From NCBI GenBank assembly GCA_028707175.1, contig JAQTUV010000002.1, positions 62,001-126,000 of the forward strand: DNA of 64,000 nt, written 5' to 3'. Below, in pieces: positions 38,744 through 50,505 of the stretch. The stretch comes from Sideroxydans sp. Lineage in GTDB: Bacteria; Pseudomonadota; Gammaproteobacteria; Burkholderiales; Gallionellaceae. Numbering within the stretch: position 1 is the first letter of the stretch; the number at the start of each line of letters is the position of its first letter. Made by a program: the position numbers and the translations under genes. The notes beneath the pieces were generated by a model. That model worked only from the letters and a program-made list of their open reading frames with translations, was not told the DNA's origin and did not search any database.

Positions 38744-39220
38744 TCAACGATGATCTTTCACTGTTGGGTCATTGTAGTGCTGGTAACTTAAATCTAGGGC
38801 TTTCACTTCAGCGGATACTTCGAGAGATTGCTGCTTCCCGCCAATTTCCATCAGCAATTTAACCGGCACTTTTTCACCTACATTTAATGGCACCTTCAGC
38901 CCAACCAATGTCAGATAGACGCCCCGCTCACCAAAGATGATCGTAGTGTGTGCTTTCAGATTCATACTATCGACTGCGCTCGTTTGCATCTTGCCACGAC
39001 GCATGACCACCCCCTGTATTTCCCCAGAGGTGGCCACTGGACTGCTGACCGACAACAAACGGGTTGCTTTAGTCACGCTAAGATTCATTTGAACCGTAGC
39101 CGATGTTTGACCGGGTACGCTCTCGCGCATCCATACCTTGTCCACCATCACATCATTTGCCCCCGCCCATGCCTGTTGCGCAAACAGCAAAGCCAGTAAG
39201 ACACACACTCGTTTAAACAT
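38744..39220 (-). CDS. PCu(A)C-like periplasmic protein lacking the copper ligands
   Basis: This 158-residue protein has a signal peptide (cleavage near AWA-G, about 20) and a PCu(A)C fold. The canonical copper ligands are not there: the usual ELH is EIQ, and the usual GYHLMLMGL is GVYLTLVGL, so both His and the key Met residues are replaced. It still has MRRGKM in the first loop. It lies 22 bases downstream of the intact paralogue and probably shares its transcript. It might act as a partner, a weak Cu(II) binder or a decayed copy. Confidence 0.8.
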   Translation of the reverse strand: MFKRVCVLLALLFAQQAWAGANDVMVDKVWMRESVPGQTSATVQMNLSVTKATRLLSVSSPVATSGEIQGVVMRRGKMQTSAVDSMNLKAHTTIIFGERGVYLTLVGLKVPLNVGEKVPVKLLMEIGGKQQSLEVSAEVKALDLSYQHYNDPTVKDHR

Positions 39221-39242
39221 AGGTGAGAGCTCCATAAAGGTA

Positions 39243-39707
39243 TTAATGATGGTGATGATGCTCGGCCTGAGCAGATTCTGCCAAAGGCTTAATTTTGGCG
39301 ATTACTTGCACCTTACTATCTTTGCCATCCGCACCACGCACAATCATTTCGCAATTCGTCTTTTTGCCCGCCTCTAGCGGCTTTTTCAGTCCCATCAACA
39401 TCAGGTGATAACCTGCTTCGCCCAAGTCCACCGCCTTGCCCGCAGGCAGTTCGATAGCATCCACTTGACGCATCTTCATCAAATCACCTTCCATCACCAT
39501 GCTATGCAACTCAGATGTGGCCGCATCCTTACAAGCGACACTCACCAATTTCGCAGCCTTCTTGCTAGTGATGACAGCTTGTACCATCGCACTGTCTTGA
39601 CCAGGTGCAGTGGCGCGCGACCAAGCGTCTTTCACGTTCACATCACTGGCATAGGCAGATGTCACCGCAGTCATGGCCAACACACTCGTCATCAGAATTC
39701 TTTTCAT
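39243..39707 (-). CDS. PCu(A)C copper chaperone with His5 tail
   Basis: This 154-residue periplasmic protein has a signal peptide (cleavage near AYA-S, about 19). It carries the full PCu(A)C Cu(I) site: His and Met residues in SELHSMVMEGDLMKM and in GYHLMLMGLKKPL. PCu(A)C proteins deliver copper to the CuA and CuB centres of haem-copper oxidases, often with a Sco protein. The natural C-terminus is a run of five histidines, a likely extra Cu(II) or Cu(I) binding tail. It heads a two-gene operon divergent from the copper receptor. Confidence 0.92.
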   Translation of the reverse strand: MKRILMTSVLAMTAVTSAYASDVNVKDAWSRATAPGQDSAMVQAVITSKKAAKLVSVACKDAATSELHSMVMEGDLMKMRQVDAIELPAGKAVDLGEAGYHLMLMGLKKPLEAGKKTNCEMIVRGADGKDSKVQVIAKIKPLAESAQAEHHHHH

Positions 39708-39799
39708 TACTTTCTCCTCAATTGAAACGCGCCACAATCAGCGACGCGGCATTCTAGCTCGAATCATCTCCTCACATGAACGCCAAAGAGCACTCCGCA

Positions 39800-39820
39800 G
39801 GTGCGGCAAATTGTCGCACC
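39800..39820. promoter_or_regulatory. RegA/RegR-type palindrome between PCu(A)C and the copper receptor
   Basis: The core GCGGCAAATTGTCGC (39803-39817) sits in an inverted repeat with 8-bp arms (one G-T pair) and a 5-base spacer. The half-sites GCGRC and GTCGC and their spacing match the box at 46655-46671. Two positions differ from the RegR consensus. It lies about 57 bases upstream of a TAGAAT -10 candidate (39751-39756) for the PCu(A)C operon, and upstream of the receptor start on the other side. Confidence 0.6.
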
Positions 39821-39891
39821 TTCATTCAAGCTTGGCCTGTAGCAACGCATAGTAAAATGCCTCCTAAATTCGCCACCTAAAAGTTAACGTG

Positions 39892-42111
39892 ATGCCCTTT
39901 CTCCACTCCGACCCCAAACGATTTTCACTTCAATTGAAACTGGTCGCCACCTTATTTGCCTTAGCGCCTTGGATAGCGACCGCAGAAGAAGTTGCGTTGG
40001 ACACAGTTGTGGTCTCAGCTCCCAAAGTCACCGATTCATCACAGAATGCCCCGAACACGAGTAAAGAAGGCTTAACAAGCCAACGTGCGACAACCAGCGA
40101 TAGCGCACGCTTACTACAAGACGTTCCTGGCGTGAGTCTTTATGGCGCCGGAGGCGTATCAAGCTTACCCGCAATCCACGGCCTAGCTGATGATCGTATC
40201 CGCATCCAAGTAGATGGCATGGATCTGGTAGCCGCTTGCCCCAACCATATGAATTCAGCACTCTCCTACATCGACCCAACCAACGTTGCTAGCGTAAGCG
40301 TATTTGCTGGCATCACACCGGTCAGCGTTGGTGGCGACAGCATCGGCGGCACGATACAAGTGAGATCAGCCGCACCCGAATTTTCCGAATCCGATGAGGA
40401 GACGTTGCGCAAAGCGCAAGCTAGCGTGTTCTACCGCAGCAATGGAAACGGTTATGGCGGCAATCTCTCCGCATCCATCGCCACTGAAACTGTGCGCCTG
40501 TCTTACAGCGGCGCCACCGCGCGTACCGAAAATTATTCCGCCGGAAGTAACTTCAAGGCGGCAGGCTCTGGCACACCGGGCAGCCCTTGGCTGTCTGGCA
40601 AAGAAGTTGCCTCCACCGCTTATCAATCTTTGAATCAAGATTTCGGCATCGCACTTAAACACGACGATCACGTATTACAACTGAATGTCGGCATGCAACA
40701 TCTCGCCTTCGAAGGATTTCCAAATCAGCGCATGGATATGACGGGCAACGACAGCACACAGATCAACTTGCGATATACCGGGCAGTATGACTGGGGCGAA
40801 CTGGAAGCGCGTATTTACGACCAAAGTACCGACCATGCCATGAACATGGGGCCGGACCGCTTCACCTATGGCGCACTGGGCATGCCCATGCTCACCAAAG
40901 CAAAGACACTGGGCGCGATGACTCAAGGCAACATCATCCTGTCCGAACAAGACATTCTGCGTATCGGCGCCGAGTATCAGCAATACACCCTCAACGATTG
41001 GTGGCCACAAGCGGGCGGGGCAATGGGGCCGAATACTTTTTGGAACGTAGACTTCGGAACACGCGACCGCTTGGACACGTTCGGCGAATGGGAAAGATTC
41101 TGGAATGCTGAATTGATGAGCCAGATCGGCATACGCAGCGATATCGTTAAAGCCAATGCAGGTGCTGTACAAGGCTACAACGCCACGGCCTTGTGGGCGG
41201 TGGATGCCGCCGCCTTCAATGCACTTGAACACCAGCGCACCGATGAGAATTGGGATGCCACCGCCCTGACCCGCTACACACCCGATGACACTCACATCTT
41301 CGAGTTCGGATATGCGCGCAAATCCCACTCGCCGAACCTATATCAACGCTACCCCTGGTCGACGCAACCCATGGCTTCCTTGATGAACAACTTCGTCGGC
41401 GACGGCAATGGTTACATCGGCAATGTGGATCTGCGCCCCGAAATAGCACACACCCTGAGCATCATGGGCGATTGGCATGATGCCGAACAAGAACAGTGGA
41501 CGCTGAAGGCAACCACCTACTACACCCACGTACAAGACTTCATCGATGCACGTCGTTGTGATTTTGGGCAATGTGGCGGCGCGACCAATCTGAGCGCGAC
41601 CACCGGCTTCGTTAATCTGCAATACGTCAACCAAGATGCGCGCCTGTACGGACTCGATCTGTCCGGAAGCACCCAATTAGTGAACAATGACTATGGCGAT
41701 TTCAGCGCAACAGGTTTGTTGAATTACGTACGTGGCGAGAATAAAACCACGGGCAACGATCTCTACAACATCATGCCACTGAACATGAAGCTCGCTTTGA
41801 TACGGCAAAAAAACGAATGGACGAACACCGCCGAGATTCGGCTGATCGATGCAAAAAACCATGTCTCCCAAGTCAGGAATGAAATGAAGACGGCAGGCTA
41901 CGGCTTGGTGAACCTACGCAGCAGCTACGAATGGGAACATGCTCGACTGGATATCAGCATCGAAAACCTATTCAATCACTTTTATTCACAACCCCTCGGC
42001 GGCGCCTATCTTGGGCAGGGTGCATCCATGTCGAGCAACAGCATCCCTTGGGGGGTCGTCGTTCCGGGCATGGGCAGATCAATCAACACAGCACTGAATG
42101 TGAGTTTTTAA
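39892..42111 (+). CDS. oprC: TonB-dependent copper receptor (OprC/NosA-like)
   Basis: This outer-membrane protein of about 739 residues has a signal peptide (cleavage near ATA-E, about 31), a plug domain (about 55-165) and a 22-strand barrel ending in Phe. The plug has AACPNHM, so Cys116 and Met120 form the CxxxM half of the copper site known from OprC. The barrel has HAMNM at about 315, supplying the HxM half. The receptor therefore probably imports Cu ions. The ATG at 39892 follows an in-frame GTG. It is co-directional with the lipoprotein gene two bases after its stop and shares a palindrome with the PCu(A)C genes. Confidence 0.88.
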   Translation: MPFLHSDPKRFSLQLKLVATLFALAPWIATAEEVALDTVVVSAPKVTDSSQNAPNTSKEGLTSQRATTSDSARLLQDVPGVSLYGAGGVSSLPAIHGLADDRIRIQVDGMDLVAACPNHMNSALSYIDPTNVASVSVFAGITPVSVGGDSIGGTIQVRSAAPEFSESDEETLRKAQASVFYRSNGNGYGGNLSASIATETVRLSYSGATARTENYSAGSNFKAAGSGTPGSPWLSGKEVASTAYQSLNQDFGIALKHDDHVLQLNVGMQHLAFEGFPNQRMDMTGNDSTQINLRYTGQYDWGELEARIYDQSTDHAMNMGPDRFTYGALGMPMLTKAKTLGAMTQGNIILSEQDILRIGAEYQQYTLNDWWPQAGGAMGPNTFWNVDFGTRDRLDTFGEWERFWNAELMSQIGIRSDIVKANAGAVQGYNATALWAVDAAAFNALEHQRTDENWDATALTRYTPDDTHIFEFGYARKSHSPNLYQRYPWSTQPMASLMNNFVGDGNGYIGNVDLRPEIAHTLSIMGDWHDAEQEQWTLKATTYYTHVQDFIDARRCDFGQCGGATNLSATTGFVNLQYVNQDARLYGLDLSGSTQLVNNDYGDFSATGLLNYVRGENKTTGNDLYNIMPLNMKLALIRQKNEWTNTAEIRLIDAKNHVSQVRNEMKTAGYGLVNLRSSYEWEHARLDISIENLFNHFYSQPLGGAYLGQGASMSSNSIPWGVVVPGMGRSINTALNVSF

Positions 42112-43656: not shown

Positions 43657-44823
43657 TTATTGCGTCTTGAAAGGGTCAGAAAAACGCGGATTGGTCAAAA
43701 ACTCTTCGTCTGTTAGCGTCTTCAGAAATGAGATCACATCCGCCTTGTCTTGAGCTGTGAGTTTAATGTTGTCGACACGTTTATCTTTCAGAGGACTCTG
43801 GCGACCGTCTCCCTTATTCTCACCCGCAGAAATCACACGTCCGTGCCCCGCATAGAAATCTAAGACTTGCTCCAAGGTGTCGATACTACCGTCATGCATG
43901 TAAGGTGCCGTCACCGCCACATTACGCAAACTCGGCGTGCGGAACATTCCCATATCTTCCAGTCGATTCGATAATTCGGCGATACCACGATTTTTATCTG
44001 GGAACGCGCCTTTACCATCAAGGTTATATAGTCCCGTGTTATGGAACTCTGTTTTTACATCCACATCATTCGCAGAAATAACTTGGTCATTGAAGTTGAA
44101 ACTACCGTGACACTGTGAACACTGAGCTTTCTCAGAAAAGAACAAACCCCTTCCGCGCTCCTCTTGTTCCGTCAACGCAACCTTGTGCTGTAGATGCTGA
44201 TCATATTTGCTGTTGGCGGATATCAGTCCACGCTGAAAAGCTGAGATTGCCTTGATGACATTGCTCAAGCTAATCGGCTCTTTTTCTTCTGGAAATACCT
44301 GCCTGAATTGTTCGGCGTATTTTTCATCGGCACGCAAACGCTGCAAAATAACAGGCTGCGTCTGATCGTTTACCCCCATTTCGACAGGATTCTCACCCAA
44401 CAATGGATTAAGCATTTGACGCTCCATCGAAGCCAGTGAATAGTTCGCCCAAGTGAAGTACGGGTGATAGACCGAGTTTGCTAAATGCTGTGCACTGCGC
44501 AAAGTATGTTCACCGGTAGACCCCGTCGCCACGGCCTTGCCATCGGTAAAGGCTAAATTTTGAAAGTGGCAGGATGCACAAGCAAAAGTAGCATTTCCAG
44601 ATACTCGTTTGTCGTAAAACAAACTGCGCCCTAACTGAAACTTCTCTTCCGACATCAGATTATCAGCAGGAATTCGAGGTTGCGGGAAATGTGCCGGTAG
44701 TTCCCACTTCCATTCAGTCAATGGCTTGGGTGTGCGCTGATGCAGCATAAAATATCCAAGCGCCACCGCTCCCCCTACCAAGGCCAGAAAAAGAACCCAT
44801 TTTTTGCTTGTGAAATTCAACAT
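43657..44823 (-). CDS. mbnH: Di-haem enzyme MbnH (MauG/cytochrome c peroxidase family)
   Basis: This protein of about 388 residues has one N-terminal membrane anchor or uncleaved signal (about 10-28) and two CxxCH haem motifs, CASCH (about 82-86) and CSQCH (about 235-239). The segments FHNTGLYNLDGKGAFP and FRTPSLRNVAVTAPYMHDGS are typical of the MXAN_0977-type di-haem family that includes MbnH. In methanotrophs MbnH oxidises a tryptophan of its partner MbnP to kynurenine, creating a copper site. Here the partner is the gene directly upstream. The ATG at 44823 follows an in-frame GTG. Confidence 0.88.
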   Translation of the reverse strand: MLNFTSKKWVLFLALVGGAVALGYFMLHQRTPKPLTEWKWELPAHFPQPRIPADNLMSEEKFQLGRSLFYDKRVSGNATFACASCHFQNLAFTDGKAVATGSTGEHTLRSAQHLANSVYHPYFTWANYSLASMERQMLNPLLGENPVEMGVNDQTQPVILQRLRADEKYAEQFRQVFPEEKEPISLSNVIKAISAFQRGLISANSKYDQHLQHKVALTEQEERGRGLFFSEKAQCSQCHGSFNFNDQVISANDVDVKTEFHNTGLYNLDGKGAFPDKNRGIAELSNRLEDMGMFRTPSLRNVAVTAPYMHDGSIDTLEQVLDFYAGHGRVISAGENKGDGRQSPLKDKRVDNIKLTAQDKADVISFLKTLTDEEFLTNPRFSDPFKTQ

Positions 44824-44858
44824 CACCGTCGCCTCTGAATTGAGCTGTTAAATGAAAA

Positions 44859-44927: not shown

Positions 44928-46553
44928 TTACCGGACTACGAACAATGTCTGAGCAGCGCCATCATTAATCGGCAAACCAGTCACTGAGTCAATTTGGAGC
45001 TTATTGAAGAAGTAAGCTGCACTACCGGCCATCATCATGCCACCTGGTTTAGCTGACATCCATGTCTTCGAAGTAGTCAGATCAAGGCCATTGAACAATG
45101 CGCCCAAATCTAAAGCGATCTTCTGTGTCGTTGAATTGAAGTTGGCGAAAGACAATTGCATACGGTTTGGGCTACCGCAACCATTGATTACTTCACCGTT
45201 CAAAGGATTTGCCTTGCAACCAGTTGCCCCCAAGTGAACCATCGTCGTCACACCCGCTGCTGGCGCTACAGGGTTCGCTGTAAATTCAATTTTAGTGAAC
45301 TTACGGCCTGACTGCCACGACCAATTAAGCGCTGAATTTTGGAGCGGCAAAGGCGTCGCCGCATCAGCAATATTGCTGTGATTCAACTTTCCAGGAACAC
45401 CCACTGTAAATGCGATACCCACATAACTACCTGGCGCCACTTTACCTGTCACAGCAGTGTAAGTTCCCGCAGTTCCACCAACACAAGTATTCGTACCGTC
45501 TTCAAAATCGAGCATGGCAACATTGCTACCTTGGTTGGCGTTCTCAGTCATCACCACTGGAGCGTAATTACCCGCAGCATCGATCAGTGCAACACCAGAA
45601 ACGTAGAAACGTAAATCTTTCAATGACCCCACAGTTGAAGCGGTTCCCAACGTCAGCGCACTGGCAGCGCAACCGCCAACACCAATATTCGTAGCACCAT
45701 TGATCACATCAAAATTGATAGTCACGTTCTGCGTTGCGGCTGCAGCCAAAGACGCCGCATTATTTGCAGCAATTTGTGCTTTCAGAGAGCCCGCGCCAAC
45801 TACACTGCTAGAGTTGACAGCTGTAGAAGAGAACATCGTTGCAACCGCAGCGACATTGCTCGTCGCTTGGAATTGCAAGACTGATTCAGCTTGGCCCAAC
45901 AATGCACTTTGAGTTGCTTTGTCAGTACTTGCTGTTGAAGACCCAAGAGATGCTTTACCTGCCTTCAACACAGCCACAATGGTCTTAGCTGCCTCATGCG
46001 CACGGAAATATCCGTTTGTTTGATCAGTTGCAGAACCTTTGAGAGATACATAGTTACCTGAAACGCTCACGCCGCTAGCTGCGGGGATACCCAAAGCCTG
46101 ACCAACTGAAGCAACGGCAGAAGCCGCAGTCGCTCCCGCCAACACTTTTTCATTGACCAAGGTAGAAAGGGGACTCACAAATGATGCCCCTGCTGGCGCT
46201 GCTAAAGTGAATGCTTGTCCTACTGCAACGCCTGTATCTTTATCCACAGCCGTAGAAGGAACTTCAGCCACAACGGGATACAACGATTGCTGACCCGATG
46301 TAATACCCGAGATGGTGTAATCGCCATTTGTACCAGTCGTTGAAGATGGTTCGCCAGAATCACACACACCATTGCTGTTTGTATCTAAGCAGACTTTAGC
46401 GCCGCTCAAATAACCGTCAGCGACGATTCCAGACAAGGTAACGGTTGAAGAGCCGCTGCTTGAGCTGCTACCACCACACCCTACGACCAATGCAGCAACA
46501 GCGGTCATTACAATGCCCAGCTCTGCCATGCGTTTCAAATTACGTTTGTTCAT
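44928..46553 (-). CDS. mbnP: MbnP copper-binding lipoprotein with long N-terminal extension
   Basis: The 541-residue protein starts at ATG 46553 (AGGAG 6 bases upstream) and has lipobox VVGC (Cys26), then a Ser linker. An N-terminal module (about 38-95) reads LSGIVADGYLSGAKVCLDTN, a carboxypeptidase-regulatory-like or Cna-B-like fold with Cys55 and Cys64. An Ala/Ser-rich helical stretch follows (about 125-275). The MbnP domain fills about 276-541, with the family's four cysteines (295, 357, 446, 459), the NWSWQSG tryptophans (411, 413), His392, His440 and GGMMM (504-508). MbnP normally has no such extension. It is the substrate of MbnH and a Cu(I) binder in methanotrophs. Confidence 0.85.
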   Translation of the reverse strand: MNKRNLKRMAELGIVMTAVAALVVGCGGSSSSSGSSTVTLSGIVADGYLSGAKVCLDTNSNGVCDSGEPSSTTGTNGDYTISGITSGQQSLYPVVAEVPSTAVDKDTGVAVGQAFTLAAPAGASFVSPLSTLVNEKVLAGATAASAVASVGQALGIPAASGVSVSGNYVSLKGSATDQTNGYFRAHEAAKTIVAVLKAGKASLGSSTASTDKATQSALLGQAESVLQFQATSNVAAVATMFSSTAVNSSSVVGAGSLKAQIAANNAASLAAAATQNVTINFDVINGATNIGVGGCAASALTLGTASTVGSLKDLRFYVSGVALIDAAGNYAPVVMTENANQGSNVAMLDFEDGTNTCVGGTAGTYTAVTGKVAPGSYVGIAFTVGVPGKLNHSNIADAATPLPLQNSALNWSWQSGRKFTKIEFTANPVAPAAGVTTMVHLGATGCKANPLNGEVINGCGSPNRMQLSFANFNSTTQKIALDLGALFNGLDLTTSKTWMSAKPGGMMMAGSAAYFFNKLQIDSVTGLPINDGAAQTLFVVR

Positions 46554-46626
46554 CAACAATCTCCTGATTGAGTTAACTGAGGAATCTTTCGATCCCAAAT
46601 CGACTGCCTGCAAATTCCAGCGACGC

Positions 46627-46654
46627 ATATTACTCACTCCCATACGAATGTCAC
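46627..46654 (-). promoter_or_regulatory. Possible mbnP promoter
   Basis: GTGACA (46649-46654) and TAATAT (46627-46632) are 16 bases apart on the minus strand. The -35 box touches the palindrome at 46655-46671, so an activator bound there would be centred about 42-45 bases before the start. Confidence 0.45.
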
Positions 46655-46671
46655 TGCGACATTTTGTCGCA
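46655..46671. promoter_or_regulatory. RegR-box palindrome between mbnP and the two-component system
   Basis: The sequence TGCGACATTTTGTCGCA is a perfect 6-bp inverted repeat with a 5-base spacer. Its 15-base core GCGACATTTTGTCGC fits the published RegR box, GNGRCRTTNNGNCGC, at every position. On the plus side a TAGAAT -10 box (46695-46700) is 9 bases before the kinase ATG, with no good -35, which suits an activator site at about -44. The match is seen; binding by the adjacent regulator is inferred. Confidence 0.75.
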
Positions 46672-46708
46672 CCCCAATAACGACGGGCTTCCAGTAGAAT
46701 CCGCCGCC

Positions 46709-48157
46709 ATGAATACATCCCTCCTTTCCACCCAAACAGGTCACTCGCATCTGCGCCGCTTGTTCATGCTGCGCAACTGGGCGATCTTGGCCCAGTTCGC
46801 CACTTTGATCTTGGTGCACCGTTTCCTGAGCACGGATTTCGCATGGACACCGATGATCGGCACGGTGGTGTTCTTGGTGTTGGTCAACTTGCTCACCTGG
46901 TGGCGCTTGTCACTTGACTACCCCGTCGGCAACCTCGAACTGTTTTTGCAGTTGTGCCTAGACGTGAATGCACTGACGGTGTTGCTGTACTTCGGCGGTG
47001 GCTCGACCAATCCTTTCGTCTCACTTTATCTACTGCCGCTGGTGCTGGCGGCAGCCACTTTGCCGCGCCGCTACACATGGGGCATGGCAGCCTTGACCGT
47101 GGCTTGCTACAGCTTGTTGATGGTGTGGTACGTGCCGCTACCCACTGGGGATGCGCATGCAGGACACGCAGGACATACAGCGACAGCCGTCGTCGCTGCC
47201 GCCTCCTCAGTCACGGCAGCCCCCGTGCACGACCATGCCGCGATGACAATGGATCACAGCCAGCATCAGATGCATCAGCCCGACAAAACAGCTTCAGATT
47301 ACTGCCGCACCGAGCCCGAATCCGCGCCTGTTATCGCAACTGCCGACACCTCTCCGCTAGGAGATGCATTCAACGCTCACGTGCTTGGCATGTGGCTAGG
47401 CTTCGTCATCAGCGCGACGGTAATCGCCTATTTCGCAGTAGAGATGGCGGCGGCAGTTAGATTGCGCGAGGCGCAGCTCACCCAAGTGCGCGAAGAGACC
47501 TTGCGCAACGAACGTATCGTATCGTTGGGTACTTTGGCCGCCAGTGCAGCTCACGAATTGGGCACGCCGCTATCCACCATGTCCGTAGTGATCGGTGAGA
47601 TGCAAAACGACTGCAAATTACCCGACCAAAAAGAAAGCCTGACTCTGCTCGACGACCAAGTGCGTAACTGCAAACGCATCCTCAGCACCTTGGTGAGTCA
47701 TGCACAAGCGACACCGGAAGTGATGAACATTGACGGTTTCTTGTTGGCTGTATTGGACGAATGGCAATTGTTACGCCCCACCGTGCATTACAACTATCAA
47801 GTCGGTGGCACTCAACCCGCACCACGCCTACGGCCTGACCCAGCCTTGCGTGCCGCCTTACTCAATCTATTGAATAACGCTGCCGATGCATCCTCGGAAG
47901 GGATGGAGATCATGTTGCATTGGAACGACAAACATATCGTGCTGGAGATCCAAGACCAAGGGCCTGGGCTCACCGCCGAGGCTGCCTCACGTGCGGGCTC
48001 CGCATTCTTCACCACCAAAGAGGAGGGGCGCGGATTGGGCTTATTCCTCGCCAATGCCACCCTAGAAAGGCTGGGCGGTAGTGTGCGTCTATTCAACCGC
48101 GACAGCGGCGGCGCGACCACCGAAGTGAAATTGCCACTGCAAGGACTTCCCGCATGA
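46709..48157 (+). CDS. regB: RegB/PrrB-type sensor histidine kinase with His/Met-rich periplasmic loop
   Basis: This 482-residue kinase has six membrane segments (between about 20 and 245). It carries the RegB quinone motif FGGGSTNPF (about 95-103), the H-box AHELGTPLST with His282, and a cysteine 39 residues later (Cys321), matching the RegB redox Cys that lies 40 residues after its His. Between segments 5 and 6 there is an insert (about 146-195) with eight His and three Met, such as HAGHAGH and HDHAAMTMDHSQHQMH. Topology puts it in the periplasm. The catalytic domain with NLLNNAADAS and GRGLGLFLAN is complete. ATG 46709 is preferred to an upstream TTG. It overlaps regA (ATGA) and is divergent from mbnP. 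Confidence 0.85.
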   Translation: MNTSLLSTQTGHSHLRRLFMLRNWAILAQFATLILVHRFLSTDFAWTPMIGTVVFLVLVNLLTWWRLSLDYPVGNLELFLQLCLDVNALTVLLYFGGGSTNPFVSLYLLPLVLAAATLPRRYTWGMAALTVACYSLLMVWYVPLPTGDAHAGHAGHTATAVVAAASSVTAAPVHDHAAMTMDHSQHQMHQPDKTASDYCRTEPESAPVIATADTSPLGDAFNAHVLGMWLGFVISATVIAYFAVEMAAAVRLREAQLTQVREETLRNERIVSLGTLAASAAHELGTPLSTMSVVIGEMQNDCKLPDQKESLTLLDDQVRNCKRILSTLVSHAQATPEVMNIDGFLLAVLDEWQLLRPTVHYNYQVGGTQPAPRLRPDPALRAALLNLLNNAADASSEGMEIMLHWNDKHIVLEIQDQGPGLTAEAASRAGSAFFTTKEEGRGLGLFLANATLERLGGSVRLFNRDSGGATTEVKLPLQGLPA

Positions 48158-48693
48158 ATCAAATCAGCAACGACACACCAACCTTGTTGTTAGTAGATGA
48201 CGACGACACGTTTCGTAGCGTGCTTGGACGAGCCTTGGAGAAACGTGGTTTCAGTGTAACCACGGCCGCCAGCGTCGAGAGCGCCTTACCGCTGGCACAA
48301 GCTAACCCACCCGAATTCGCCGTCATCGACCTTAAGATGCACGGTGCTTCGGGGTTGGTGTTAGTACAAACCCTACACGAACTCGACCCCGCCACGCGTA
48401 TCGTCATGCTCACGGGTTACGCCAGCATCGCCACAGCGGTGGAAGCCATCAAGCTCGGAGCCACGCAATATCTATCCAAACCCGCCAACGCAGACGAGAT
48501 TGTTGCCGCCTTCGGTCATAACGCCAACGCCGATGTGCCCGTAGAAGCCCAACCTTCCACGGTAGATAAACTAGAGTGGGAGCACATCAACCGCGTCCTA
48601 CATGAACAGCAAGGCAACATCTCTTCCACCGCGCGGGTACTCAATATGCACCGCCGCACCTTGCAGCGAAAATTGGCCAAACGGCCGAACTAA
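48154..48693 (+). CDS. regA: RegA/PrrA-type response regulator
   Basis: This 179-residue regulator has a receiver domain (about 10-125; phospho-acceptor Asp59 in FAVIDLKM, conserved Lys near 109) and the very conserved RegA Fis-type helix-turn-helix at the C-terminus (LEWEHINRVLHEQQGNISST, then ARVLNMHRRTLQRKLAKRPN). The helix-turn-helix is almost invariant in this family and binds GCGRC-type palindromes. Two such palindromes lie at 39800-39820 and 46655-46671. It is coupled to the kinase by an ATGA overlap. Confidence 0.92.
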   Translation: MNQISNDTPTLLLVDDDDTFRSVLGRALEKRGFSVTTAASVESALPLAQANPPEFAVIDLKMHGASGLVLVQTLHELDPATRIVMLTGYASIATAVEAIKLGATQYLSKPANADEIVAAFGHNANADVPVEAQPSTVDKLEWEHINRVLHEQQGNISSTARVLNMHRRTLQRKLAKRPN

Positions 48694-48778
48694 AAAATTG
48701 AAAATAGGTTAAAGATTTGGCTCTCAATGCCGAAGACACTTCCAAGATATTAAAACAATCACTAGAGGGGAGACATTG

Positions 48779-49645
48779 ATGAGCACGCAACCTATTGACT
48801 TAAAAAAGGCAATTAAAAATCTGGATAGCTTGCCCGCCATGCCGGTCATCGCTCAGAAGATCCTTGCACTTTCATTGGATACGGATGCCGGAGAACTACA
48901 ACTATTGCGGCTCATTGAAAAAGACCCGCAAATCTCTGCGCGTATCATCGGACTTGCCAACAGCCCCCTATTTGGCGCCTCAAAACGTGTCAACTCCATA
49001 CAGGATGCGGCCATGTTACTTGGCCTCACCCGTGTAAAGTCAGTGGCCGTAGGCATCGCAGTGATGTCCACCCTTCAACGCTCCCCTTCGGGCACCCTTG
49101 ATCTTCAGCAACTGTGGATGCATAGCCTAGGCGTAGCCTTAGGGATGCGCACCTTATCTCGCGCCATGCCACCCCGTACCCGCCCACTTGAAGATGAAAT
49201 CTTTTTAGCTGGCTTGTTACACGATATTGGCTACATGGTGCTCAATTATCTAGATACTTCGTTGAGTGATCGACTGCATAACCAACTCATCGCTCAGCCG
49301 GAACGCACCATCAGCGATATCGAGCCTGAGATAATTGAGATCAGCCATGCAGAACTTGGCGCGGAACTCGCACGCCACTGGGATCTGCCAGAAAGAATCA
49401 TCGCAGTCCTTCGCTACCACCACACCCCAAACGATGAGGCCGCTGCAGCAGGACAGCCTCTTGTTTCATTACTCAACCTATCTGAACGACTCCTACCTTC
49501 TTTCGGCATTACAGAAACAGTTGACCTAACTATCAATGAGGCCGACTGGACCGAACTTGGGATCGACCCATCACGTGCTGAAGAACTGACAGCCAGCGTT
49601 CACGAACAAGCAGAACTCGCTAAACAACTTGCAAACTCATTCTAA
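48779..49645 (+). CDS. HDOD domain protein, copy 1
   Basis: This 288-residue protein consists of one HDOD domain (about 15-215) with LLHDIGYMVL (about 128) and a C-terminal helical part. HDOD proteins are degenerate HD-type signalling modules that often act with c-di-GMP or stress pathways. The start at 48779 has GGGGAG upstream; an in-frame TTG lies one codon before. It is followed by a paralogue whose start overlaps its stop (TAATG). It comes 85 bases after regA, so it may or may not share that transcript. Confidence 0.88.
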   Translation: MSTQPIDLKKAIKNLDSLPAMPVIAQKILALSLDTDAGELQLLRLIEKDPQISARIIGLANSPLFGASKRVNSIQDAAMLLGLTRVKSVAVGIAVMSTLQRSPSGTLDLQQLWMHSLGVALGMRTLSRAMPPRTRPLEDEIFLAGLLHDIGYMVLNYLDTSLSDRLHNQLIAQPERTISDIEPEIIEISHAELGAELARHWDLPERIIAVLRYHHTPNDEAAAAGQPLVSLLNLSERLLPSFGITETVDLTINEADWTELGIDPSRAEELTASVHEQAELAKQLANSF

Positions 49646-50505
49646 TGAACGCACCCAACGGACTTCTTATCGCGGTACAACAATTCGACATCCTGCCGAC
49701 GCTGCCATTGATTGCGCAGAAACTGTTGGCACTCGACTTGGAGTCGGATACTGGCGAGCAACAGTTAATGCAGCTCATTTCACAGGACCCGCTTATCTCG
49801 GCGAAAATTATCGGATTAGCCAATTCCCCGCTGTTTGGCAGTTCACGTCAAATCAATTCCGTGAAGGAAGCTGCTGTACTGTTAGGACTCACTCGCATCA
49901 AATCATTAGTCACCAGCATCGCCATCACATCACTGGCTAACACCCCCATCGGCAAATTCGATCCGCACGAACTTTGGTCACACACAATGAGTGTCGCCTT
50001 TGCCATGCTGCCTGTTGTACGAGCCATGCCCGCAAAGCAACGCCCTACAGAGGATCAGATTTTTTTGGCGGGCATGCTACATGACATCGGCTATCTCGCA
50101 CTGGCGCACTTGGATTCCAAACGGAGTGACGCCTTGCACACCCTCTTACTCATCGAAAAGAATCGCGCGCTCATCGAGATTGAACAAAAGCTGCTAGATG
50201 TAACCCATGCGGAATTAGGGGCGGCACTCGCCTCACATTGGAGCCTGCCAGCAGACATGATCGATGTCATCCGTTACCACCACTCGCCCGCAAAAGATGC
50301 CGCAGCGCCTCTCCCCGTGTTGGCATTAGTGATTCAACTCACAGAACGTCTCATGCCCACACCAGGGCTGAATGAATATCACGGGGAAACTGTCTCCGCA
50401 GATGAGTGGCTTGCATTGGGAATCGATCCAAACCAAGCCGACGAGATTACCGCGCTCATTGCAGAACAAACCGAACAAGCCATACAGTTCGTCGCATCGT
50501 TCTAA
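49645..50505 (+). CDS. HDOD domain protein, copy 2
   Basis: This 286-residue protein is a paralogue of the preceding gene over its full length (compare KIIGLANSPLFGSSRQINSVKEAAVLLGLTRIKS with the matching part of copy 1), with LHDIGYLALAH at about 148. Coupled translation with copy 1 suggests a hetero-oligomer or a fresh tandem duplication. The function is unknown. The next gene, a DD-carboxypeptidase-like protein, starts 70 bases later. Confidence 0.88.
   Translation: MNAPNGLLIAVQQFDILPTLPLIAQKLLALDLESDTGEQQLMQLISQDPLISAKIIGLANSPLFGSSRQINSVKEAAVLLGLTRIKSLVTSIAITSLANTPIGKFDPHELWSHTMSVAFAMLPVVRAMPAKQRPTEDQIFLAGMLHDIGYLALAHLDSKRSDALHTLLLIEKNRALIEIEQKLLDVTHAELGAALASHWSLPADMIDVIRYHHSPAKDAAAPLPVLALVIQLTERLMPTPGLNEYHGETVSADEWLALGIDPNQADEITALIAEQTEQAIQFVASF

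Follow-up and report, generated by a model that had tools for sequence, protein, structure and literature searches.

The analysed window is a stretch of 64 kb (G000:C9:62001-126000) from a genome of 2.89 Mb in 19 contigs. It contains a gene pair for a sensor kinase and a response regulator, upstream of which lie, in this order, mbnP, mbnH, a gene for a protein with a weak fn3 match (below the cut-off), a gene for an OprC-like TonB-dependent receptor, and two PCu(A)C genes. The features are, in positions of the window:

38744..39235, minus strand: PCu(A)C protein, second copy (PF04314, 68 bits)
39243..39737, minus strand: PCu(A)C copper chaperone, likely start 39707 (PF04314, 99 bits)
39802..39818, unstranded: RegA-type palindrome TGCGGCAAATTGTCGCA, between the PCu(A)C and TonB receptor genes
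39889..42111, plus strand: TonB-dependent receptor, nearest solved relative OprC (E 3.6e-22)
43657..44826, minus strand: MbnH-family di-haem enzyme (TIGR04039, 468 bits, above cut-off)
44928..46718, minus strand: MbnP-family copper-binding protein, likely start 46553 (TIGR04052, 202 bits, above cut-off)
46655..46671, unstranded: RegA-type palindrome TGCGACATTTTGTCGCA, ahead of both regB and the likely start of mbnP
46709..48157, plus strand: RegB-type sensor histidine kinase, 482 aa, six membrane segments (HisKA, HATPase_c)
46994..47017, plus strand: quinone motif GGGSTNPF, residues 96-103
47144..47386, plus strand: His/Met-rich expanded loop, residues 146-226, in the TM5-TM6 interval
47378..47380, plus strand: codon of His224, three residues ahead of GMW, close to where the TM6 helix starts
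47552..47554, plus strand: codon of the phospho-acceptor His282, in the H-box HELGTPL
47669..47671, plus strand: codon of Cys321, at the RegB redox Cys position, 39 residues past His282
48154..48693, plus strand: RegA-type response regulator, 179 aa, without Cys (receiver and Fis-type helix-turn-helix)

Relatives were compared at the levels of family, class, and phylum. The nearest named relatives were MAGs of Gallionellaceae, Sideroxydans, and Gallionella, on the basis of which the genome was assigned to Gallionellaceae. The family set comprised loci of genomes of the same family together with 37 named loci (L038-L074). The titles of the latter mostly read Gallionella, Sideroxydans or Gallionellaceae, some read only Nitrosomonadales, Gallionellales, Proteobacteria or Gammaproteobacteria, and they were counted as family on similarity. 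Three genomes (G055, G076, G083) contributed two family rows each. The class neighbourhoods were taken from 40 of 117 other genomes with a RegB match, mostly those with higher scores. The classical RegB set consisted of the 30 best-scoring kinases from a phylum sample of 299 genomes, presumably Alphaproteobacteria, which belong to the same phylum and another class. For the comparison of loops and neighbours, 10 duplicate proteins and 5 loci without a measurable loop were subtracted from 151 loci; 20 rows had less than 4 kb of upstream sequence and were scored as unknown where no gene was visible. Second RegB-like kinases under the score threshold (L322-L324, L326) were left out of the loop comparison. 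In some genomes of the phylum, a RegB above the NF033792 cut-off is accompanied by such a second RegB-like kinase below it (L322-L324).

The kinase ORF and the regulator ORF overlap (48157 versus 48154). The best NCBIfam model was ActS/PrrB/RegB for the kinase (NF033792, 241 bits) and ActR/PrrA/RegA for the regulator (NF033791, 203 bits), but the cut-offs of 350 and 250 bits, respectively, were missed. Because neither equivalog cut-off was reached, the two proteins form a RegBA-type pair outside the curated equivalogs; the kinase cut-off was reached in 62 of the 299 phylum-sample genomes. The kinase also matched 6TM_PilS just above its cut-off (28.2 versus 27 bits), and hydropathy predicted six membrane segments, as in RegB/PrrB/ActS. 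A self-search of the genome returned 14 other matches, all of which start at residue 228 or beyond, and no second full-length copy was found in it. The signatures named in the first-pass annotation, i.e. the quinone motif, the H-box His, and a Cys 39 residues further on, were all recovered. The quinone motif agrees with the RegB consensus GGxxNPF, and GG..NPF occurs in 108 of 111 family rows, duplicate and truncated rows counted, and in 39 of 40 class rows. The H-box is likewise that of RegB. A Cys was present 36-43 residues past the H-box His in 30 of the 30 best-scoring classical kinases, and the Cys at the redox position was invariant across an alignment of 28 rows. By analogy with RegB, the kinase would read quinones, and Cys321 would have a redox function. 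The gene pair very likely encodes a RegBA-type redox system, as had been proposed.

The helix-turn-helix of the regulator matched Pfam HTH_8, and the RegA-type motif is kept in 95 of 97 distinct family regulators, in line with the original description of this domain. Group 1 RegBA systems are characterized by a Cys before the RegA helix-turn-helix and by senC beside regA/regB. The regulator has no Cys at any position, and the only Sco/SenC match of the genome, at C9:141557, is some 31 kb away from regB. Of the classical RegA proteins, 27 of 27 had a Cys ahead of or within the helix-turn-helix, as did 5 of 95 family regulators and 22 of 34 regulators of the class sample. For the present regulator, dimerisation through a disulfide formed under copper, which is the R. 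capsulatus mechanism, was rejected, since there is no Cys. Two tandem genes for HDOD-domain proteins follow regA (48776-50505, plus strand); many relatives do not share this arrangement, with only one or neither gene seen here, or with one in the opposite orientation.

The copper setting that had been assumed for the locus is real, as judged from profile and structure matches to two PCu(A)C proteins, a TonB receptor with OprC as nearest solved structure, MbnH, and MbnP. The receptor scored 111.6 bits with the copper receptor model TIGR01778, and two heme-receptor models scored higher, at 133-134 bits, with all three below their cut-offs. The mbnP start was set at 46553 on account of a lipoprotein-like signal. 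The segments ELHSMVM and YHLML of the first PCu(A)C copy correspond to EIQGVVM and VYLTL in the second, which thus seems to lack the His ligands of the copper site of the family. Even so, many loci of the genus have a second copy beside the first.

The most unusual part of the kinase is the interval between its fifth and sixth membrane segments. Hydropathy revealed a long hydrophilic stretch (145-231), and from PLP (143-145) to GMW (227-229) the loop is 81 residues long and includes 9 His, 3 Met, and 1 Cys. His and Met together make up 15% of the loop versus 5% of the remaining kinase. Its placement between the last two membrane segments agreed with the first description. The size had been put at about 50 extra residues with eight His; compared with 12-17 residues in short-loop relatives, the extra part amounts to about 65 residues. 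The loop probably faces the periplasm, based on the topology of RegB, which we take to have its N-terminus inside. In an AlphaFold model, residues 144-217 had a pLDDT below 50 and no secondary structure was present up to residue 215, while an unbroken helix spanned residues 216-301, from the end of the loop via TM6 past the phospho-acceptor His. The model was weak overall (mean pLDDT 68, pTM 0.41) and too poor in the loop for locating a site, so that the TM6 helix joining the loop end to His282 is only a hint.

Among 97 distinct family kinases, the loop was short (up to 17 residues) in 30, intermediate (18-31 residues) in 16, and long (at least 32 residues) in 51. Loop lengths in the family rows ranged from 14 to 114 residues. 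A short form from a relative is HNHQHDGDSAFNAHVV. The short family loops contain on average 3.9 His and 0.5 Met, the 51 long ones 5.3 His and 4.4 Met. The expanded loops vary in length and sequence, yet stay rich in His and Met; the loop of L126, for example, has 12 Met and 5 His in 44 residues and contains MDHSMMGHDM. Long His/Met loops are present in several genera of the Gallionellaceae, and a quick tree required at least five changes between loops of fewer than 20 and at least 20 residues. Two close relatives, L041 and L042, have loops of 102 and 114 residues; their Pro/Ser-rich stretches (in L042, PLPSPQSSPASGRGGE) resemble repeats that were inserted in frame and translated. The His at the end of the loop (H-x2-GMW, His224) was found in 97 of 97 distinct family kinases and in 35 of 39 class kinases. 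Most class-level loops outside the family (37 of 39) were short, with a mean of 2.8 His, and two lacked His. Loops of the 30 best-scoring classical kinases, of which WYEGAPLAMPFIYVA is an example, contain no more than one His, never at the place of His224. A loop of this kind is thus not common to all RegB proteins; its presence in all of them, with no link to copper genes, would have spoken against the original proposal. Short loops with His in the class and their absence from classical RegB suggest that the short His loop is the older state in this branch, and the long loop looks like an expansion of it.

The usual gene order in the family is argB, one or two PCu(A)C genes, often a TonB receptor gene, and then regB and regA in the opposite orientation. 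The first-pass annotation had asked whether the loop goes along with oprC, PCu(A)C or mbnHP genes. Counts of the neighbours did not support this for PCu(A)C. Where family loci could be judged, the gene lay within 4.5 kb in 25 of 26 with short, 8 of 15 with mid, and 41 of 45 with long loops; in the class, this was the case at 1 of 38 loci. It did not hold for mbnHP either: MbnP was found in 9 of 158 family genomes, whereas the loop is mid or long in 67 of 97 distinct family kinases, and MbnPH genes also adjoin short-loop kinases outside the family (L175, L178). For the TonB receptor, the raw counts within 4.5 kb showed an association in the family (0 of 21 short-loop, 4 of 14 mid-loop, and 35 of 47 long-loop loci), but in the class 11 of 37 short-loop and 0 of 2 mid-loop loci also had the receptor. 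On the tree, only 4 independent pairs on supported branches were available, too few for a test, and without significance. On the counts across family and class loci, the idea that the loop marks neighbourhoods with mbnHP or PCu(A)C genes was rejected, and long loops follow copper neighbours no more closely than short ones.

The connection to copper comes by other routes: PCu(A)C is the usual neighbour of regB in the family, and mbnPH genes lie beside regBA in several lineages. In the family, mbnP adjoins regB in the genome studied here and in two others (G141, locus L102; G036, locus L306), and fragments of mbnP adjoin regB where the contigs of L041 and L042 end (L042 belongs to G131). In the other six family genomes with MbnP, MbnP and the RegB match are on different contigs. 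The L306 locus has two MbnH-type genes and one MbnP gene beside regB, and the 150 nt ahead of regB contain three RegA-type boxes. In the class sample, MbnP was present in 14 of 369 genomes, 8 of which also had a RegB-type match at 1e-30. In 4 of these 8 (this genome, G219, G225, and G356), representing three of seven families, MbnP and RegB were separated by no more than 5 kb. With a probability per genome assumed to be 0.003, from 10 kb in about 3.5 Mb, this is far above chance. The gene order found here recurs in G225 and G356, with short loops, and in G219 mbnP and mbnH are co-oriented with regB.

Of 94 distinct family regB genes, 75 have a RegA-type box, GCG[AGT]CA-N3-TG[ACT]CGC, in the 250 nt ahead of the gene, and for 73 the box is at -75 to -35 (3 of the 97 family rows had less than 120 nt of upstream sequence). 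The reversed pattern yielded 0 matches in these upstream regions and shuffled sequences a mean of 0.02. The pattern was drawn from the same upstream regions and the genes are related, so the counts show conservation, not independent events. The box was found both with loops of at least 20 residues (52 of 66) and with shorter loops (23 of 28). In family loci, it usually lies between regB and a diverging TonB receptor or PCu(A)C gene. In the class, 11 of 39 relatives had the box, 7 of them at -75 to -35; regB was without the box at 19 of the 94 family loci and 28 of the 39 class loci.

In the own genome, 25 matches to GCGNCANNNTGNCGC were found versus 5 for the reversed pattern; this narrower form was picked after inspection of the family upstream regions. 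The looser TGCGACNNNNNGTCGCA with one mismatch gave no excess (15 places in the genome versus 17 for the control). Enrichment is thus confined to the form whose spacer is flanked by A and T. GCGRCA-N3-TGYCGC fits 12 of the 25 places. Two of these boxes are clearly between called ORFs, namely those between the PCu(A)C and TonB receptor genes (39803-39817) and at ccoNOP. Six further boxes were counted as promoter boxes, which requires start corrections or the dismissal of two ORFs, and the remaining four fall inside genes. The palindrome at 46655..46671 sits within the longest mbnP ORF, yet upstream of its likely start. Two boxes are 272 and 535 nt upstream of cydA, inside two ORFs without a Pfam match that we took as spurious. 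Three boxes (C15:52444, 52459, and 52634) fall inside the longest ORFs as called, but between a TonB receptor gene and mutL if the likely starts of both are used. This receptor, whose nearest solved structure is a pyrroloquinoline quinone transporter, possibly belongs to a further metal-uptake operon of the predicted regulon; its gene is followed by genes for a His/Met-rich DUF4198-like protein (below the cut-off) and a Fer4_5 protein (L271, G000:C15:48500-57000).

Conservation was not uniform for the two oxidase operons. The ccoN box was present in 12 and absent in 8 of 20 genus relatives (20 of 28 relatives with a match). The cydA box was found in 1 of 10 relatives within about 600 nt upstream (10 of 15 relatives with a match), and was accordingly rejected as a conserved feature of cydAB. 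In the available part of a study of R. capsulatus, ChIP peaks of RegA contain GCGACCGTTCGTCGC at ccoN and GTGACAATTTGTCCC at cydA (PMC5359404), so that the box motif and two targets match published RegA binding. The regulator is predicted to bind these boxes, and their position before genes for respiration and for copper supply suggests that the two are under joint control.

The explanation that we propose is a RegBA-type redox system of Gallionellaceae that jointly governs O2 respiration and copper supply and has a probable periplasmic copper input; to us, the chances for and against it are about balanced. The kinase would read the quinone pool through residues 96-103 and cytoplasmic Cys321, like RegB, and probably also periplasmic copper through the TM5-TM6 loop. 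Copper bound by the loop and by His224 would exert its effect where the TM6 helix begins; this helix may be continuous to the phospho-acceptor His. The regulator would act at GCGRCA-N3-TGYCGC boxes before ccoNOP, cydAB, the PCu(A)C and TonB receptor genes, mbnP, and regBA. Judged by its composition, copper sensing appears to be the most natural reading of the loop, and we infer that the loop may bind copper and that binding may alter kinase activity. The cbb3 oxidase needs copper, and the bd oxidase is copper-free. In the more specific version, which resembles the dual sensor first suggested for this locus, one kinase measures quinone redox state and periplasmic copper, and both set the choice between cbb3 and bd and the uptake and delivery of copper (OprC-like receptor, PCu(A)C, MbnPH). 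We regard this version as possible, but less likely than not. Of the original copper interpretation, the RegBA pair, the His/Met loop, and the copper connection stood, and the loop as a sign of copper neighbourhoods did not.

The same genes could also be controlled by a plain RegBA redox system, with copper genes in the regulon since cbb3 needs copper, and with the loop as a periplasmic metal buffer or an inert linker that contributes no signal. That copper genes and RegA-type boxes accompany short loops as well as long ones fits this simpler arrangement, and redox input alone could suffice, as senC lies beside RegBA elsewhere (PMC9147068, available part) and copCAB is under RegR (PMC4064962, available part). 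It accounts less well for His224, which is kept throughout the family and in nearly all class kinases and is absent from the 30 classical RegB kinases, and an inert linker would not need the His/Met-rich composition that the long loops retain. We consider the plain redox system possible, if doubtful. It is unlikely, in our view, that the loop senses another metal, e.g. iron, zinc or nickel. His-rich stretches bind several metals, and the host is related to iron-oxidising bacteria. However, Met prefers Cu(I), to which the Met enrichment of the long loops is best suited, and the neighbouring genes encode copper proteins. RegBA is also tied to iron elsewhere: according to the available parts of the two sources, it regulates iron uptake in Methylomonas DH-1 (PMC13274454) and iron-oxidation genes in Acidithiobacillus ferrooxidans (PMC5506826). 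Neutral expansion of low-complexity repeats in a permissive loop would explain the wide range of loop lengths and the repeat-like Pro/Ser stretches of L041 and L042, but His and Met stay high across divergent loops and the terminal His occurs in every distinct family kinase, so that we regard it as very improbable.

To our knowledge, how bacteria fit the choice of oxidase to the supply of copper is an open question. If the loop of this kinase senses copper, one switch would join redox and copper inputs. Even without copper sensing, the analysis provides a predicted, testable regulon for Gallionellaceae and links MbnPH genes to RegBA-type systems in several lineages. Neither a RegB-type kinase with a periplasmic loop rich in metal ligands nor RegBA beside PCu(A)C and MbnPH was found in the literature searched, which included few subscription papers.

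Several known systems share parts of this arrangement. CusS/CopS-type kinases, which belong to another kinase lineage, are not known to have a quinone motif or a RegA-type partner. These kinases combine periplasmic copper input with the control of copper genes (PMC7763554, available part), whereas a copper input is only proposed here. The cruR-bfrG(crtA) operons of Bordetella and other bacteria encode TonB copper transporters that are associated with respiratory oxidases and, in some species, with genes for PCu(A)C, ScoI or MbnPH-like proteins; control is post-transcriptional, by CruR (PMC9426467, PMC12914433). The available text of PMC12914433 gave no match for RegA, and that of PMC9426467 none for RegB. 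The closest known systems are RegB/RegA of Alphaproteobacteria and their counterparts PrrB/PrrA, ActS/ActR, and RegS/RegR, which share with the present pair the quinone motif, the H-box, the position of the redox Cys, the RegA-type helix-turn-helix, and a similar binding motif with ccoNOP and cydAB among the targets. They differ in the TM5-TM6 loop (at most one His in the 30 classical kinases and none at the place of His224, versus 9 His here), in the Cys of classical RegA, which this regulator lacks, and in the neighbouring gene, which is the copper chaperone gene senC at group 1 regBA loci (PMC9147068, available part) and PCu(A)C here. A link between RegBA and copper is already known in other forms, i.e. 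the senC neighbour, copper-bound RegA, and the control of copCAB by RegR in Bradyrhizobium (PMC4064962, available part). According to the available part of PMC9147068, RegA of R. capsulatus binds copper, which promotes a disulfide at Cys156; as the regulator described here has no Cys, its mechanism would differ from that of R. capsulatus, while the link between RegBA and copper is shared.
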